Shown piece by piece: positions 1-14,038 of a stretch of 40,714 nucleotides of DNA. The stretch comes from Bacteroidetes bacterium QS_8_68_28. GTDB lineage: Bacteria > Bacteroidota > Rhodothermia > Rhodothermales > Salinibacteraceae. The stretch's first letter is position 1. Each line of letters begins with the position of its first letter. The notes below the pieces were generated by a model. The model was not told where the DNA came from and ran no database searches. It saw only the letters and a list, made by a program, of their open reading frames with translations. The stretch is taken from positions 1 to 40,714 of the forward strand of contig PXTS01000057.1 in NCBI GenBank assembly GCA_003022485.1, in the 5' to 3' direction. The position numbers and the translations under genes were made by a program.

Positions 1-4443
<4,443 letters not shown>

Positions 4444-4521: not shown

Positions 4522-5649
4522 TCAGGTACTTTGGGACGCGACATTGCGTCCTGCGGACGGAACCGTTGCCGCCCCGTCGCCGCCACCGGGCGCGCTCGTC
4601 TCAATCGTACCGGCCTGGGAACGGCTCTCCCCTCCATCGCCAGGGGCCTCGAAGAGATGCGGGTGCGCGCCCTGGAGGTGCTCGCGCAGGGCGTCGTCGA
4701 GGGCGGCCTCGTAGAGGGTGGCCGCCTGCCCCAGCGCGTCGGTGTCTTCCTCGGCGAGCCGCACGCCCGAGAGGTCGGCGGCACGCAGGATGGCCCCGTC
4801 CAGCGAGGTCCCGCGCAGGTCGGCCTTGCGGAGGGTGGCGCCGGTGAGGTCGGCTTTGTCGAGGCGGGTGCCCGCCAGCCTCGCCCCGGTGAGGTTGGCC
4901 TCGCGGAGGGTAGCGCGGCCCAGGTTGGCTTCCTCGAGAGCGGCCGCGCGCAAGTTGGCGCCGCTCAGGTTCGCGCGCTCCAGCTCGATGCCGCGCAGGG
5001 TTGCGTACTGAAGGTCCGCCTCTTCGAGGTCGGCCCCGCGCAGGTCGGCCTTCTCGGCGTGGGCGCGTTCCATGTCGGTGGTGCGCAGGTTGGCCCCGCG
5101 CAGGTCGGCGGCTTCGAGGCGGGCGCTTTCGAGGTCGGCGGCTTCGAGGGCGGCCCCGGCCAGCAGCGAGCCGGCGAGTTCAGCCCGGCGCAACGTGGCC
5201 TCTTCGAGATTTGCGCCCCAGAGGTTCGAGTTGTTGAGCCGCACGTTTTCGAGGCTGGCGCCTTTGAGGTGGGCCTCCGGCAGCTCCAGCCCCTCGGTCA
5301 CGCCGCTGCGGTTGAGCCGCCGCACGTTGCTGACGATGCGGTGAGAGGCCACCGGCGAGCGCCAGCCGAGGGCGTCTTCGATCTCCTCGCGGTAGCGGTT
5401 TTTGCGCTCGCGCCGGTCGGCCACGCTGCTCAGCCAAAGAAGCAGCCAGCCGAGGATGAGCAGGTCCAGCAGGATGCCGTAGGATTCGGCCACGAGGTTG
5501 ACCTTCAACTCCTTCACCGCCGGGGAGAAGAAAAACGGCAGCGACACCGGCACCACCAGCGCAGCGGTGAATAGAAACACCAGGAACACCATTAGCACGG
5601 GGCTTTCAGCCGCGAGCTCTTCGAACTTGTCCTGGAGGCGCTTCTTCAT
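4522..5649 (-). CDS. Pentapeptide-repeat protein with two N-terminal transmembrane segments
   Basis: Starts MKKRLQDKFEELAAESPVLMVFLVFLFTAALVV; hydrophobic ILLDLLILGWLLLWL; then many A(D/N)Lxx repeats (ADLRGADLEEADLQYATLRG). Confidence 0.88.
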   Translation of the reverse strand: MKKRLQDKFEELAAESPVLMVFLVFLFTAALVVPVSLPFFFSPAVKELKVNLVAESYGILLDLLILGWLLLWLSSVADRRERKNRYREEIEDALGWRSPVASHRIVSNVRRLNRSGVTEGLELPEAHLKGASLENVRLNNSNLWGANLEEATLRRAELAGSLLAGAALEAADLESARLEAADLRGANLRTTDMERAHAEKADLRGADLEEADLQYATLRGIELERANLSGANLRAAALEEANLGRATLREANLTGARLAGTRLDKADLTGATLRKADLRGTSLDGAILRAADLSGVRLAEEDTDALGQAATLYEAALDDALREHLQGAHPHLFEAPGDGGESRSQAGTIETSAPGGGDGAATVPSAGRNVASQST

Positions 5650-5970
5650 GAGAGCGAACGGGTGAGGGCGAAGGCGGGAAGAAGCAACGCGACGGCCGGG
5701 CCGGGGGGAGGCGCGGCTCGTTCTTGCAGCGCCGGCCGCGCGGGAGAGCGCGGGCAAAGAACACAAATCAAAAACCCGGCCACTTTGGGCAGGCACCGCG
5801 TGAAAGCGCGCCCCGTTCCGCGTTGCACTTGCGTGCGGACGCCGGCAAACGTGATCTTTACAAAAACGACGCTGGCTGCCCCGTATGCTTACAGGCAGGG
5901 CCGCGCCTCTGGCGCTGCGGCCGAACGCTCCTTTTCGCTGAATGCTTCCCTCCTCGACTGTCGTTTTGCC

Positions 5971-6303
5971 ATGAACACCTACTTTCTCGTCTACCTGATC
6001 GGATACGGCCTCATGATTGCCGCCGTGTGGCTGGGCCTCGACGCGGCAGGCGTTTCGCAGACTTGGAAGCTCGTGGCGGCCGCCTTTCTGCTGGGGCTGG
6101 GCATCATCTACGCCTTCTCGCAGGCGCAGACGGACACGGCACAGCGCGAGCAGGCGCGCAACACCGGCGGCGGCAGCCCGCAGCAGGGGGGGGCGCCCCC
6201 GCAAAGCGGCCCACAGCAGGGAGGGACGTCGCAGCAAGGCGGCAGCCCGCAGCAGGGCGGGGCGCAAGGCAACAATCCACAGCAGGGTGGTGGACCCCAG
6301 TGA
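5971..6303 (+). CDS. Small membrane protein with Gln/Gly/Pro-rich repetitive C-terminal tail
   Basis: MNTYFLVYLIGYGLMIAAVWLGLDAAG... two hydrophobic helices, then PQQGG-like repeats to the stop. Confidence 0.7.
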   Translation: MNTYFLVYLIGYGLMIAAVWLGLDAAGVSQTWKLVAAAFLLGLGIIYAFSQAQTDTAQREQARNTGGGSPQQGGAPPQSGPQQGGTSQQGGSPQQGGAQGNNPQQGGGPQ

Positions 6304-6533: not shown

Positions 6534-8378
6534 ATGTGGGATTCGATCCGCGACGGGCTGGTGACGCTGGCGGAGCAGTACGGCGTCAATCCGGTCGTCT
6601 TCGTGGCCATCTACCTGAGCACGATCCCGCTCTACATGGCCTCCATCGGCTGGGTGGTGCGGCGGCTGTTGCGGGGGCGCTCCTACCTCCTGCCTGCCAC
6701 GCTGGCGGCGGGGTTTTACCTGTCCTCCTACATCTACGTGTTCGTCGAAGGGCGCAACCTCCCGCTCTGGGTGTACGGGGCGATGGCCGTCATGATCGGC
6801 GGCGGGGCCTACTTTACGATCCAGAACATCCGCAAGCGCACGGGGATGAACCCCAAGGACTGCACGCACGACCTCATCGTGATCGGGGGCGGCGCGGCGG
6901 GGCTCACGGCGGCGCGCTTTGGGGCGCGCATCGGGGCCGAGACGCTACTGGTCGAGCAGGGCCACTTCGGCCCGGTCGCCGAGGAGGGCACGCCCCAGCT
7001 AGGCGGTGACGCGACGTGGGAAGGGTGCGTGCCCTCCAAGACGCTCCTGCGAAGCGCGCGGGCGGCCCACCAGCAGCGCCACGCCTCACGCTACGGCCTC
7101 GAAGACCGCGATCCGGAGGTGGACTTCGCTGCCGTGATGGAGCACGTGCGCTCCGTGCGCCAGCAGGTCTTCGACGAGCGCAGCCACCCCGACCACCTCG
7201 AGGCGCTGGGGGCGGAGGTGCGCGCGGGCCGGGCACGCTTCTTGGGACCGCACACCGTCGAGATCGAGCAGAGCGACGGCGTGCACACCGCCAGCGCGCG
7301 CTACCTCGTCATCGCCGGCGGGGGCGACCCGAAGTCCCCGCCCATCGAAGGGCTCGACCAGACGCCCCACCTCACCAGCGCGTCGCTCTTCGAGATCAGC
7401 CGCCGGCCTGAACGGCTGCTCATCCTGGGGGGCGGCCCCATTGGGACGGAGATGGCGCAGGCGTTCCAGCGGCTGGGCTCGCAGGTGACGGTCGTCGAGG
7501 AGCGGGAGCGGATTCTTCCGAAAGACGATCCCGAGATGACCGGGCGCCTGCGCGAGCGGCTCGAAGCGGAGGGCGTGCGCTTCCGGCTCGGCGCCTCCGT
7601 GGAGCGCGTCGGCAAGCACGGCGCCGAGGAGGGCCTCGCCAGTGCCGTCTTCGCCGACATCCACAGCAGCGGCGACGGCGAGCCTGAGCGCATCGAGGCC
7701 GACGCGCTGCTGGTGGCGACCGGGCGCGGGGCGGCCCTCGAGGCGCTTCACCTGGAGGCCGCCGGCATCGAGCACACCGAGTGCGGCGTGACCGTCAGCA
7801 GCCGCTGCCGCACCAGCCAGCGCCACGTCTACGCCGCCGGCGACGTGACCGGGCGCTACCAGTTTACCCACATGAGCGAACACATGGCACGCGTGGCCGC
7901 CGTCAACGCGCTCCTCAAAGTGCCCCTCACGCTCGACACCGACCACGTGCCTTGGGGCACCTTTACCGACCCCGAGCTGGCCCACGTCGGTGCCACCCGG
8001 CAGCAGCTCGACGACGAGGGGACCGACTACGAGGTGCACCGCTTCGACTACGCCTCGCTTGACCGGGCCGCCGCCGAGGGCGAGTCCGAAGGCCTCATCA
8101 AAGTGTACGCCACCGAGTGGCGCGGCAAGATCCTCGGCGCGACGGTGCTGGGCGCGCGCGCCGGCGAGCTGATCTGCGAGTACGCCGTGGCCATGAAGCA
8201 CGGCGTGAGCCTGCACCGCCTGGCCGACACGGTGCATCCGTACCCCACCTACGGCCTCGCCGTCCGCCGCGCCGCCGACCGCTGGTACGCCAGCAAGCAC
8301 ACCGCCCGCGTCATCGACTGGATCAAGAGCATCTGCGACTACAGAGGCGAAGTGACCGACCCCGAGCACCTGGCGTGA
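6534..8378 (+). CDS. Membrane-anchored FAD/NAD(P)-dependent pyridine-nucleotide-disulfide-oxidoreductase-family protein (MerA/Lpd-like)
   Basis: N-terminal hydrophobic segments, FAD motif DLIVIGGGAAGLTAARFGARIG, NAD motif LLILGGGPIGTEMAQAF, VYAAGDVTG; active-site region GGDATWEGCVPSK. Confidence 0.88.
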   Translation: MWDSIRDGLVTLAEQYGVNPVVFVAIYLSTIPLYMASIGWVVRRLLRGRSYLLPATLAAGFYLSSYIYVFVEGRNLPLWVYGAMAVMIGGGAYFTIQNIRKRTGMNPKDCTHDLIVIGGGAAGLTAARFGARIGAETLLVEQGHFGPVAEEGTPQLGGDATWEGCVPSKTLLRSARAAHQQRHASRYGLEDRDPEVDFAAVMEHVRSVRQQVFDERSHPDHLEALGAEVRAGRARFLGPHTVEIEQSDGVHTASARYLVIAGGGDPKSPPIEGLDQTPHLTSASLFEISRRPERLLILGGGPIGTEMAQAFQRLGSQVTVVEERERILPKDDPEMTGRLRERLEAEGVRFRLGASVERVGKHGAEEGLASAVFADIHSSGDGEPERIEADALLVATGRGAALEALHLEAAGIEHTECGVTVSSRCRTSQRHVYAAGDVTGRYQFTHMSEHMARVAAVNALLKVPLTLDTDHVPWGTFTDPELAHVGATRQQLDDEGTDYEVHRFDYASLDRAAAEGESEGLIKVYATEWRGKILGATVLGARAGELICEYAVAMKHGVSLHRLADTVHPYPTYGLAVRRAADRWYASKHTARVIDWIKSICDYRGEVTDPEHLA

Positions 8379-8533: not shown

Positions 8534-8941
8534 ATGCCCACGACCGACGGCCACGCTACCAACGGAACTGCCTCCCCGCCGCAAAACGTGCTCGGCGAAG
8601 ACCTCCAGCCGTGCAGCCGCGACCCCATGACCGGCTTTTATCGAAGCGGTGCCTGCGAAACGGGGCCGCAGGATCTCGGCGCGCACGTCGTCTGCGCGCA
8701 GATGACGGAAGACTTCCTGCGCTTTACCAGAGAGCAAGGCAACGACCTCTCCACACCGCGCCCGCAGATGAACTTTCCCGGGCTCGACGCCGGCGACCAG
8801 TGGTGCCTGTGCGCCGCGCGTTGGCAGGAGGCGCTGGAGGCGGGCGTCGCGCCGCCGGTGGTATTGGAGGCCACGCACGAACAGGCGCTGGAGGCGCTGG
8901 ACCTGGAGGACTTGCGCAGCCACGCGGTAGAGGCGGAGTGA
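8534..8941 (+). CDS. DUF2237 family protein
   Basis: NVLGEDLQPCSRDPMTGFYRSGACETGPQDLGAHVVCAQMTEDFLRFTREQGNDLSTPRP...FPGLDAGDQWCLCAARW is characteristic of DUF2237. Confidence 0.88.
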   Translation: MPTTDGHATNGTASPPQNVLGEDLQPCSRDPMTGFYRSGACETGPQDLGAHVVCAQMTEDFLRFTREQGNDLSTPRPQMNFPGLDAGDQWCLCAARWQEALEAGVAPPVVLEATHEQALEALDLEDLRSHAVEAE

Positions 8942-8984
8942 CCTCCACGCGTGTGAAATCAGACCTCCACGCGTGCGAAATCAT
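8941..8984. repeat. 22-bp tandem direct repeat, each unit containing the palindrome CACGCGTG
   Basis: acctccacgcgtgtgaaatcag / acctccacgcgtgcgaaatcat. Confidence 0.9.
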
Positions 8985-9248
8985 CCGAAGCGGTCAGGTC
9001 ACCGCTAACGCTCTCTTCACTGACTTCCGCAACGGCATGGTGGGGATCGAGGCGAAGGGCGGCGTCGAGGACCCCGAGTTCGAAGTCGTGGAAGACGAAG
9101 GGGCCGTCCGATGGATCTCGTCTCCCGGCGAAAGGAACGCCCGGAATCGGCCGTGATGCGTGCAGGCGCGCGGAGCAGCCGTTGCGCGGGACGGGCGACG
9201 TTGCCTACGTTGTGACGGCTGCCTCTCCTCCTCGCGACCGTCTTCCAG

Positions 9249-10478
9249 ATGTCGCTCCGCTGTCTCTTTGTGGTGCAGGGAGAAGGGCGCGGCCACCTCA
9301 CCCAGGCGCTGGCGCTGCGCAAGATTCTCGAGCGCGCCGGCCACCGGGTGCCCGCCGTCCTGCTCGGGCGCAACCCCAACCGCGAGGTGCCGCCCTTCTT
9401 TATGGAAAAAATCGGCGCACCCGTCGAGCGGATCGACAGCCCCAGCTTTTTCATGGACGGGCACCGCCGCGCGATGGCCTCGCTGGGCCGGACGATCTGG
9501 AAGAACGTCCCGCTGATCGGGCCCTTCCGCGAGGGGCTGCGCCGCGTGGGCCGCACCATCGAGCGCGTACAGCCCGACGTGGTCATCAACTTCCACGAGG
9601 TGCTCGCGGGCGTGCACTACGCGCTGCGCGGCGGGCTGCTGGAGCACGCCCCGGCGGAGCTGCCGCCGCTGGTGTGCGTGGCCCACCAGTACCTGTTTCA
9701 GCACCCGGCGTACCCGTCTTTCCCTGAAGGAAGGGCGTGGGACCGTTGGTGGTTGCGCTTCTTCGTGGGGGCGACGCAGCTGGGAGCGACGAAGCGGCTG
9801 GCGCTCTCGCTCTACCCAGCCGCGCACCGGCGCGAGGAGGGCCTCGTCGTAATGCCGCCGCTCCTGCGCGAGAGGTTGACTGACCCACCGAGCAGCCCGC
9901 CGGTCGAGGAGGAACCCTTTTTTCTGATGTACCTCCTCAACAGCGGCTATGCCGAGGAGGTCATCTGCTGGCACCGGTGGAATCCGGGCGTGCGGCTGCA
10001 CTGCTTCTGGGACCGTCCGGGCGCCTCTGCCCGGGAGCGCTACGACGACACGCTGACCTTTCACGCCCTCGATGACGAGAAATTCCTGTCGATGATGAAA
10101 CGCTGCCGGGGGCTGGCCACCACGGCGGGTTTCGAGTCGGTCGGCGAGGCGCTCTACCTGGGCACGCCGGTCCTGATGGTGCCGGTGGAGGGTCACTTCG
10201 AGCAGCGCTGCAACGCCATCGACGGACAGCGCGCTGGGGCGGGCGTGGCCGCGCGCAGCTTCCGGACGGGAATGAGCCGCCTGCAGGCGCTCGCCCGATG
10301 CTACGAGCCGCGCGCGCGGCGCTTCCGCCGCTGGCTCGACGGGGCCGCCGGGCGCTTCGTGCGCGAGATCGAAGGGGCGGCCGCGGGGGAGCGGCCTTTC
10401 GTTTCCGCCGGGGCGCCGGGGGGCGACGGCGTTTCCGAGGAGGCCACGTTGCAGGGGGGCGTGACGCATGGTTCGTGA
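9249..10478 (+). CDS. Glycosyltransferase family protein
   Basis: MSLRCLFVVQGEGRGHLTQALALRKILERAGHRV N-terminus; C-terminal GFESVGEALYLGTPVLMVPVEGHFEQRCNA. Confidence 0.8.
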   Translation: MSLRCLFVVQGEGRGHLTQALALRKILERAGHRVPAVLLGRNPNREVPPFFMEKIGAPVERIDSPSFFMDGHRRAMASLGRTIWKNVPLIGPFREGLRRVGRTIERVQPDVVINFHEVLAGVHYALRGGLLEHAPAELPPLVCVAHQYLFQHPAYPSFPEGRAWDRWWLRFFVGATQLGATKRLALSLYPAAHRREEGLVVMPPLLRERLTDPPSSPPVEEEPFFLMYLLNSGYAEEVICWHRWNPGVRLHCFWDRPGASARERYDDTLTFHALDDEKFLSMMKRCRGLATTAGFESVGEALYLGTPVLMVPVEGHFEQRCNAIDGQRAGAGVAARSFRTGMSRLQALARCYEPRARRFRRWLDGAAGRFVREIEGAAAGERPFVSAGAPGGDGVSEEATLQGGVTHGS

Positions 10479-12412: not shown

Positions 12413-12444
12413 CACCCCCGCACTCCCGCGCTCCCGCGCTCACG
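12413..12444. repeat. Octamer repeat between tsaE and porX
   Basis: cacccccg|cactcccg|cgctcccg|cgctcacg. Confidence 0.85.
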
Positions 12445-14038
12445 AGCGCGAGCGAAGTGTCAGCGCCGGCAGAATCATCTCCTCCATCGAGGCGCCGCCG
12501 TGCTGCATCGTGTCGCGGTACTTGCGCTGGTAGTGGTGGTAGTTGGTCGGGTAGACGAAATAGTAGTCCTCCTTGGCGATGATGTAGTTGGTGTTCATCC
12601 CCTGGCTGGGCAGACCGTAGTCTTCGGGGTCTTTGACAAAAATCGCGTGCTCGTCGTTGCACTTGAGGTTGCGCCCGTACTTGTAGCGCAACGCGGTCGA
12701 GGTCTCGCGGTCGCCGATGACTTTCGTGTCGCGCAGGCTGCGGACGGCCCCGTGGTCGGTGGTGACGACGCAGGTGGCGCCAGCGTCCGCGAGCTTCTTG
12801 AAGGCATCCAGGAGCCAGGAGTGCTCGAACCACGTGCGCGTCAGGGCGCGGTAGGCGCGCTCGTCGGGGGCGATCTCTTTGAGCACGTCGCTGTCGGAGC
12901 GGGAGTGGGCAAGGATGTCCACGAAGTTGACCACCACCGCCGAGAGGGGCTGCTGCGCCAGGTCGCCGGCGCGGGCGGCGAAGTCCTGCCCGTCCTCGCT
13001 ACTGATGAGCTTTTCGTAGTGCGCCTCGACGCTGCCCCCGCCGGGGCCGCCCGCCTGCCTGCGGTCCAGCAGGTCCTGCAGAAGCTCGGCCTCGTGCTGG
13101 TTGCGGCTGTGCTCACGCTCCTCGCCGGTGGTCCAGATTTCGGGATATCGCTCGGCGATCTGCACCGGCAGGAGCCCGCTGAAGATGGCGTTGCGCGCGT
13201 AGGGAGTGGCCGTCGGCAACAGGCCGTAGTGAAAGTTCGTCTCGATCTCGAAAAGCGGCTGGAGCAAATCCTCGAACTCCAGCCACTGGTCGTAGCGCAT
13301 GCAGTCGATCACAAAGAAGACGACCGGGCCGCCCTTTTCTTCCAGCTCCGGCAGCACGAACTGCGGAATGGCCTCGTGGCTGAGCGGCGGGCGCTCCTCG
13401 TCGGGCATATACTCGGTGGCCTCGTCGATCCACCGCGAGTAGTGACGCTCCACGAACTGGCCGAAGGCGCGGTTGGCTTCCTGGCGCTGGTCGTCGAAGA
13501 TCTGGCGCGCGCCCTCGTCGTCGGCGTCCAGTTCCTCGTCGTAGCCGACCAGTTCGCGGTACAGATCCGTCCACTCCGCGTGCTGCATCGGGGCGGAGAG
13601 GCGGCGCGAAATATCGTTAAAAGACCGGAGGTACGTCTCGGACGCCTTCTCGCTCTGCAGGCGCTCCTGTTCCAAGAGGCGCTTGACGGTCAGCAGGATC
13701 TGGCTGGGGTTGACCGGCTTGGTCAGGTAGTCGCTGATCTGGCCGCCGAGGGCCTTTTCCATCAGGCGTTCCTCCTCGCTCTTCGTCACCATCACCACGC
13801 GCGCGCCGGGGCGGGCCTCCTTGATCGCTTCGAGCGTCTGGAGGCCGTCCATGCCGGGCATCTGCTCGTCGAGGAGGACGACCTCGTAAGGATGGTCGCG
13901 CACCTCGTCGACCGCGTCGCTGCCGTTGGTCGCGCTCTCGACGGCGTAGCCTTTTTCTTCGAGAAAGAGCATGTGCGGGCGAAGCATCTCGATCTCGTCG
14001 TCCACCCACAGGATGCGTGCGGCGCCGTTGTCGGGCAT
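12440..14038 (-). CDS. porX: PorX-type response regulator with PglZ (alkaline-phosphatase-superfamily) effector domain
   Basis: Receiver ILWVDDEIEMLRPH...VVLLDEQMPGMDGLQTL...TKPVNPSQI; C-terminal VVFFVIDCMRYDQW, YGLLPTATPYARNAIFSGLLP, VVVNFVDILAHSRSD, VVTTDHGAVRS. Adjacent tsaE. Confidence 0.9.
   Translation of the reverse strand: MPDNGAARILWVDDEIEMLRPHMLFLEEKGYAVESATNGSDAVDEVRDHPYEVVLLDEQMPGMDGLQTLEAIKEARPGARVVMVTKSEEERLMEKALGGQISDYLTKPVNPSQILLTVKRLLEQERLQSEKASETYLRSFNDISRRLSAPMQHAEWTDLYRELVGYDEELDADDEGARQIFDDQRQEANRAFGQFVERHYSRWIDEATEYMPDEERPPLSHEAIPQFVLPELEEKGGPVVFFVIDCMRYDQWLEFEDLLQPLFEIETNFHYGLLPTATPYARNAIFSGLLPVQIAERYPEIWTTGEEREHSRNQHEAELLQDLLDRRQAGGPGGGSVEAHYEKLISSEDGQDFAARAGDLAQQPLSAVVVNFVDILAHSRSDSDVLKEIAPDERAYRALTRTWFEHSWLLDAFKKLADAGATCVVTTDHGAVRSLRDTKVIGDRETSTALRYKYGRNLKCNDEHAIFVKDPEDYGLPSQGMNTNYIIAKEDYYFVYPTNYHHYQRKYRDTMQHGGASMEEMILPALTLRSRS

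Follow-up and report, generated by a model that had tools for sequence, protein, structure and literature searches.

What might a flavoprotein of the disulfide reductase fold do once the first of its two redox cysteines has become an alanine, and is the alanine real? These questions are raised by a gene on a contig of Bacteroidetes bacterium QS_8_68_28 (PXTS01000057.1), of which positions 1 to 40,714 were analysed and are referred to below as the window. Judging from its name and composition, the host genus of Bacteroidota is probably a halophile of the Salinibacter type.

Gene, domains and membrane module

The original prediction, made from the letters of the sequence, had given the interval 6964-8255; a gene does lie there, but its start is further upstream, at the position listed in Table 1. 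Translation of the full frame yields 614 aa and a stop codon; the product, which contains TPQLGGDATWEGCVPSKTLLR, has cysteines at positions 110, 165, 417, 425, 548 and 601 and no others, and has the C-terminus ...GEVTDPEHLA. Pfam matches to Pyr_redox_2 (PF07992, residues 113-451, 2.8e-55) and Pyr_redox_dim (PF02852, residues 472-579, 2.8e-27) both exceed the curated cut-offs, and together make this a protein of the flavoprotein disulfide reductase fold. The FAD and NAD motifs, which had been thought to look intact, are indeed kept in the translation, the Pfam matches and the alignment, and the strand after the NAD(P)H-binding motif ends in an acidic VVEE, which suggests NADH as the donor. The best curated NCBIfam models are those of the PRK06370-type FAD oxidoreductase, mercuric reductase (MerA) and lipoamide dehydrogenase (Lpd), none scoring above its own cut-off, and sequence comparison with solved structures places mercuric reductases and lipoamide dehydrogenases nearest. 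A structure predicted by AlphaFold from three input sequences had low confidence scores (mean pLDDT 41.8, pTM 0.30).

Table 1. Features of the reductase gene and its downstream neighbour, in window positions
Feature	Residues	Positions	Strand	Basis
Whole gene, membrane-anchored FAD/NAD(P)H oxidoreductase of disulfide reductase fold		6534..8378	+	translation, domain and family searches
Three-helix hydrophobic module	~1-105	6534..6848	+	hydropathy, neighbour-locus comparison
FAD-binding dinucleotide motif region, DLIVIGGGAAGLTA	113-126	6870..6911	+	translation, Pfam, alignment
11-residue insert HFGPVAEEGTP, directly before the active-site motif	144-154	6963..6995	+	alignment
Active-site motif, GGDATWEGCVPSK	157-169	7002..7040	+	translation, congener and class comparison
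Codon GCG, Ala replacing the first redox Cys	160	7011..7013	+	translation, alignment
Codon TGC, Cys kept, flavin-proximal, family-invariant	165	7026..7028	+	translation, alignment
NAD(P)H-binding motif GGGPIGTE, kept	299-306	7428..7451	+	translation, Pfam, alignment
HPYPTYGL, site of the Lpd/glutathione reductase (GR) His-Glu dyad, here Tyr570 and Leu575	568-575	8235..8258	+	structure-sequence alignment, family comparison
DUF2237 gene, immediately downstream of the reductase		8534..8941	+	Pfam, locus comparison; candidate link only

A hydrophobic N-terminal module was also predicted to be fused to the flavoprotein, and three hydrophobic stretches are found there, with hydropathy peaks at around residues 17-42, 52-71 and 76-96. 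A Pfam search of this module gave no matches. The arrangement is not unique: the module adjoins or is fused to the reductase at a dozen or so of the other loci examined, being a separate upstream gene at most of them and fused at a few (L008, L009, L010 and L015), with homologues present at L007-L016, L023, L027, L031 and L045. At L009 and L027 a second copy of the module lies just upstream. Cys-bearing relatives have the module as well, so membrane location and the loss of the cysteine are not linked. Arg-rich stretches following helices 1 and 3 suggest, by the positive-inside rule, that the flavoprotein part would be cytosolic. An as yet unnamed three-helix membrane module therefore deserves notice as a companion of this reductase family.

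Elsewhere in the window are a hybrid histidine kinase that combines several near-identical HAMP domains in tandem with a GAF domain and three receiver domains (31-4443), a protein in which a hydrophobic segment precedes a long stretch of pentapeptide repeats (4873-6057, reverse strand), and a fusion of a response-regulator receiver domain with a PglZ domain (12440-14038, reverse strand).

Alanine at the first redox cysteine

The replacement of the first redox cysteine by alanine, with retention of the second, is borne out by the codons and by a congener, Bacteroidetes bacterium QS_9_68_14 (G001, contig PXTT01000055.1), the protein of which is 92% identical and has the motif GGDATWKGCVPSK, reading GGDATWKGC. 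The two genes are about 90.5% identical at the DNA level, and conversion of a Cys codon (TGC or TGT) to an Ala codon (GCN) takes at least two base changes; a read error shared by two species about 9.5% apart is therefore very unlikely. The two genes differ by 57.5 nonsynonymous and 108.5 synonymous changes, giving a dN of 0.044, a dS of 0.27 and a dN/dS of 0.16 (Fisher p ~1e-28), a sign of strong purifying selection. Neighbouring genes have higher ratios (0.24 for a glycosyltransferase and 0.38 for a FolC-like gene), hence the reductase is at least as constrained as they are. The rarity of the change and the incompleteness of both assemblies are all that speaks for Ala160 as a sequencing error or the mark of a decaying pseudogene; set against the shared alanine, the intact reading frame and the purifying selection, the chance of either is negligible, and both were rejected.

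Whether the alanine is conserved in close orthologues had been posed as a test, and the outcome is divided: the congener has it, but every other genus read has cysteine, which marks the alanine as a derived trait of the genus, not as an error. GGDCTW is found in 94 of the 94 other family members read, these being 93 proteins from other genera of the class and a second copy in the congener; 39 of them, the congener copy included, were read at full length or nearly so, and the further 55 are spread across the class. The Cys-bearing orthologues, found throughout the order and the class, are around 50-61% identical to the window protein and have the same domains and the same HPYP motif. Ala-bearing sequences number only two, both from incomplete metagenome-assembled genomes, around 56-62% complete (that of the window ~62%). 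Across 396 genomes of the phylum, the pattern GGDATWxGC matched the window alone. The genomes of 84,980 species, one per species, were scanned for GGD-[Ala, Gly, Thr, Arg or AGY-Ser]-x-W-x-GC-[VI]-P-x-K, a pattern limited to these residues and codons (Ser by AGY only), in a set from which the window's own genome records may have been omitted; the matches were the congener and one distant protein, and nothing more. The latter, from a Candidatus Microgenomates genome (L036:123-1490), is about 37% identical and reads GGDSLWYGCIPSK, with Ser in place of the first cysteine (GGDSLWYGC); it is apparently an independent loss. Further relatives were sought in viral contigs, with none confirmed.

The missing His and Glu of the C-terminal dyad, by comparison, tell little about this protein in particular. 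HPYPTYGL reads as originally described, and Tyr570 and Leu575 stand where group 1 enzymes (Lpd and GR) have the dyad, but this is ordinary for the family: Cys-bearing orthologues also have Tyr at the His position (HPYP[TSA][YW]G...), and the dyad Glu is absent from most of those listed as well. A minority (for example L018-L022 and L024-L026) have an acidic residue nearby, in HPYPAWGEG, one position ahead of the dyad Glu. With the His absent family-wide and the Glu absent from most members listed, this is a family trait, and its loss was rejected as a special feature of the window protein.

Other changes are confined to the Ala pair. The 11-residue insert, which in the congener reads HVGQVAEGGTP, was not found in any Cys-bearing orthologue aligned. 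The window protein keeps 85 of 92 family-invariant residues and the congener 82 of 92, with Gly128, Cys160, Tyr213, Asp217, Pro505, Ile567 and Gln583 altered in both; in a leave-one-out comparison, Cys-bearing proteins each keep around 95-100% of the invariant positions, except for one lower value (L011) from a partial alignment row. In the tree, the Ala pair has full support and groups as sister to a Cys-bearing protein from another family. Its stem measures 0.78 changes per site, whereas the median tip is 0.16 and the tips of the pair itself are short. A long stem followed by short tips, in a gene that is now conserved, is as expected for a functional shift followed by renewed constraint.

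The congener's second copy (L072:9369-10800, on its contig C69) has the ordinary GGDCTW motif and no membrane module. It lies directly downstream of what appear, by eye, to be pentose-phosphate genes, for 6-phosphogluconate dehydrogenase, glucose-6-phosphate dehydrogenase and 6-phosphogluconolactonase. When the neighbourhood of this copy was searched for in the window's own assembly, the match extended over its first part only. The adjacency of the Ala-bearing gene to DUF2237 is kept in the congener, and was not seen near the Cys-bearing orthologues examined. The interval between DUF2237 and the glycosyltransferase gene (8941-9249 in the window, compared with L043 and L071) contains about 16 kb of extra DNA in the congener. 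In G002, a third species of the genus with an assembly 62% complete, neither an Ala nor a Cys copy was found, and other genes occupy the corresponding place beside the glycosyltransferase gene.

Proposed function and its alternatives

We consider it very probable that the Ala-bearing protein still works as an enzyme but has lost the classical route of disulfide reduction. More specifically, we put the probability at about one in two that it is a functional membrane-anchored NADH:acceptor oxidoreductase, derived from a two-Cys flavoprotein disulfide reductase and probably having a quinone as its acceptor. NADH would reduce the FAD; without the first cysteine the enzyme could neither form an internal disulfide nor attack an external one, and, as no internal dithiol is possible, the flavin would hand its electrons straight to a two-electron acceptor. 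With the putatively cytosolic domain anchored at the membrane through the three-helix module, the most likely acceptor would be a membrane quinone of the menaquinone type, as for Mycobacterium tuberculosis LpdA, whilst Cys165, lying beside the flavin, could tune it by charge transfer. The different chemistry originally suggested, a Cys-based peroxide or persulfide reaction or one linked to quinone at the membrane, survives in part: loss of internal disulfide chemistry is implied, and a quinone reaction at the membrane has a precedent in LpdA (PMC6296175), but nothing specific was found for peroxide or persulfide. A bolder form of the proposal is that loss of the cysteine and gain of the active-site loop converted a module-tethered flavoprotein of disulfide reductase type into a distinct kind of membrane NADH:quinone oxidoreductase that reduces quinone directly and arose in evolution independently of complex I, NDH-2, Na+-NQR and LpdA; this we advance tentatively, and think rather unlikely.

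Retention of one invariant, flavin-proximal cysteine would also suit a single-Cys chemistry of the kind known from the group 3 enzymes (NADH peroxidase, NADH oxidase and CoA-disulfide reductase): Cys165 would alternate with its sulfenic acid or persulfide form, or oxygen would oxidise the reduced FAD. Such enzymes use one cysteine (PMC6296175), and changing the first cysteine of the transhydrogenase SthA to alanine sent 37% of reducing equivalents to H2O2 (PMC9460512). However, the window protein descends from two-Cys group 1, no group 3 family is among its best 25 NCBIfam matches and no other sequence feature points in this direction, so we regard this as unlikely. We would give slightly less credence to a transhydrogenase-like enzyme or general diaphorase, passing hydride between nicotinamides or to dyes and metal ions, for which quinone would not be the physiological acceptor. 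Transhydrogenases likewise lack one cysteine and have Tyr at the dyad His (PMC9460512), yet in them it is the second cysteine that has changed (CxxxxT) and the first that is kept, opposite to the AxxxxC seen here; the score against PRK05249 is 257.8 bits, compared with a cut-off of 465, and the membrane anchoring would be left without explanation. On the motif and the score, a true transhydrogenase was rejected.

Catalysis may also have been given up. A pseudoenzyme, or a membrane sensor of redox state or NADH, would bind FAD and NADH with turnover irrelevant and play a structural or regulatory part beside a canonical copy, and the lost catalytic residue, the insert beside the active site, the long stem branch and the ordinary Cys-bearing copy in the congener all fit such a role. 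It is nevertheless improbable, given that the cofactor and NAD sites are kept and that the first segment of the FAD domain has the lowest dN of the segments measured (0.034). Least credible amongst the functional readings, and very improbable, is a disulfide reductase that persists by using another cysteine, such as Cys110, or Cys548 of the partner subunit: Cys110 is exclusive to the two Ala proteins, both of which have Cys548 too, but Cys548 is also present in some Cys-bearing relatives, and Cys110 sits just before the first FAD strand, a position that in known folds would be far from the flavin ring.

Comparison with known systems

By descent the window protein belongs to the GGDCTW family, and its fold is that of a disulfide reductase. 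Its direct relatives, the PRK06370-type, MerA- and Lpd-like proteins with GGDCTWxGCVPSK, many of them with the module adjacent or fused, differ in keeping the first cysteine and in having no insert. As the CxxxxC of group 1 enzymes (Lpd, GR and MerA) is AxxxxC in both species of the genus, the names disulfide reductase, mercuric reductase and lipoamide dehydrogenase are unsuitable. MerA, with which the MerA-like Slr1849 of Synechocystis is grouped among the closest known systems, provides the best curated enzyme model after PRK06370 (TIGR02053, 347.7 bits against a cut-off of 454.45) and, when aligned with the window protein, has Tyr at the dyad His position too. However, MerA needs an active-site Cys pair and a C-terminal one as well; the window protein has neither the active-site pair nor the C-terminal vicinal pair, and a true mercuric reductase was rejected on these grounds and on the score. 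SthA shares with it the loss of one cysteine of CxxxxC and the Tyr at the dyad His, but it is the second cysteine that SthA has lost; SthA also keeps the Glu and is soluble.

The closest mechanistic precedent is LpdA, which lacks one cysteine and the His-Glu dyad and reduces quinones but not disulfides, and a further parallel is yeast Irc15p, an Lpd paralogue that lost both cysteines after gene duplication and which, once reduced by NADH, passes electrons to quinones and dyes in vitro as a diaphorase or quinone reductase (both PMC6296175). The motif of LpdA (Rv3303c, PDB 1xdi) is GGAAVLDDCVPSK, with Ala at the first cysteine and the second kept; the entry was identified in the PDB by the match of a short motif fragment at full identity. 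LpdA and the window protein thus have in common the Ala...Cys active site and the absent dyad, but belong to different subfamilies (232.7 bits against the PRK07845 cut-off of 479), and by this score the window protein is not an LpdA orthologue, though it may work like one. Irc15p resembles it in redox Cys loss, and differs in having lost both cysteines and in keeping the dyad. To our knowledge, neither LpdA nor Irc15p has a membrane module, three-helix or otherwise. The Ala-bearing protein looks like a natural case in which evolution independently repeated the course described for LpdA and Irc15p: a redox cysteine was dropped from a disulfide reductase and the result kept under selection. The congener's two-Cys paralogue and the two-Cys orthologues of related genera offer a clean pair for tracing this conversion, with the Cys to Ala change, the insert and the replacements of Tyr213, Asp217 and Pro505 as candidate steps from a thiol enzyme to a direct hydride donor.
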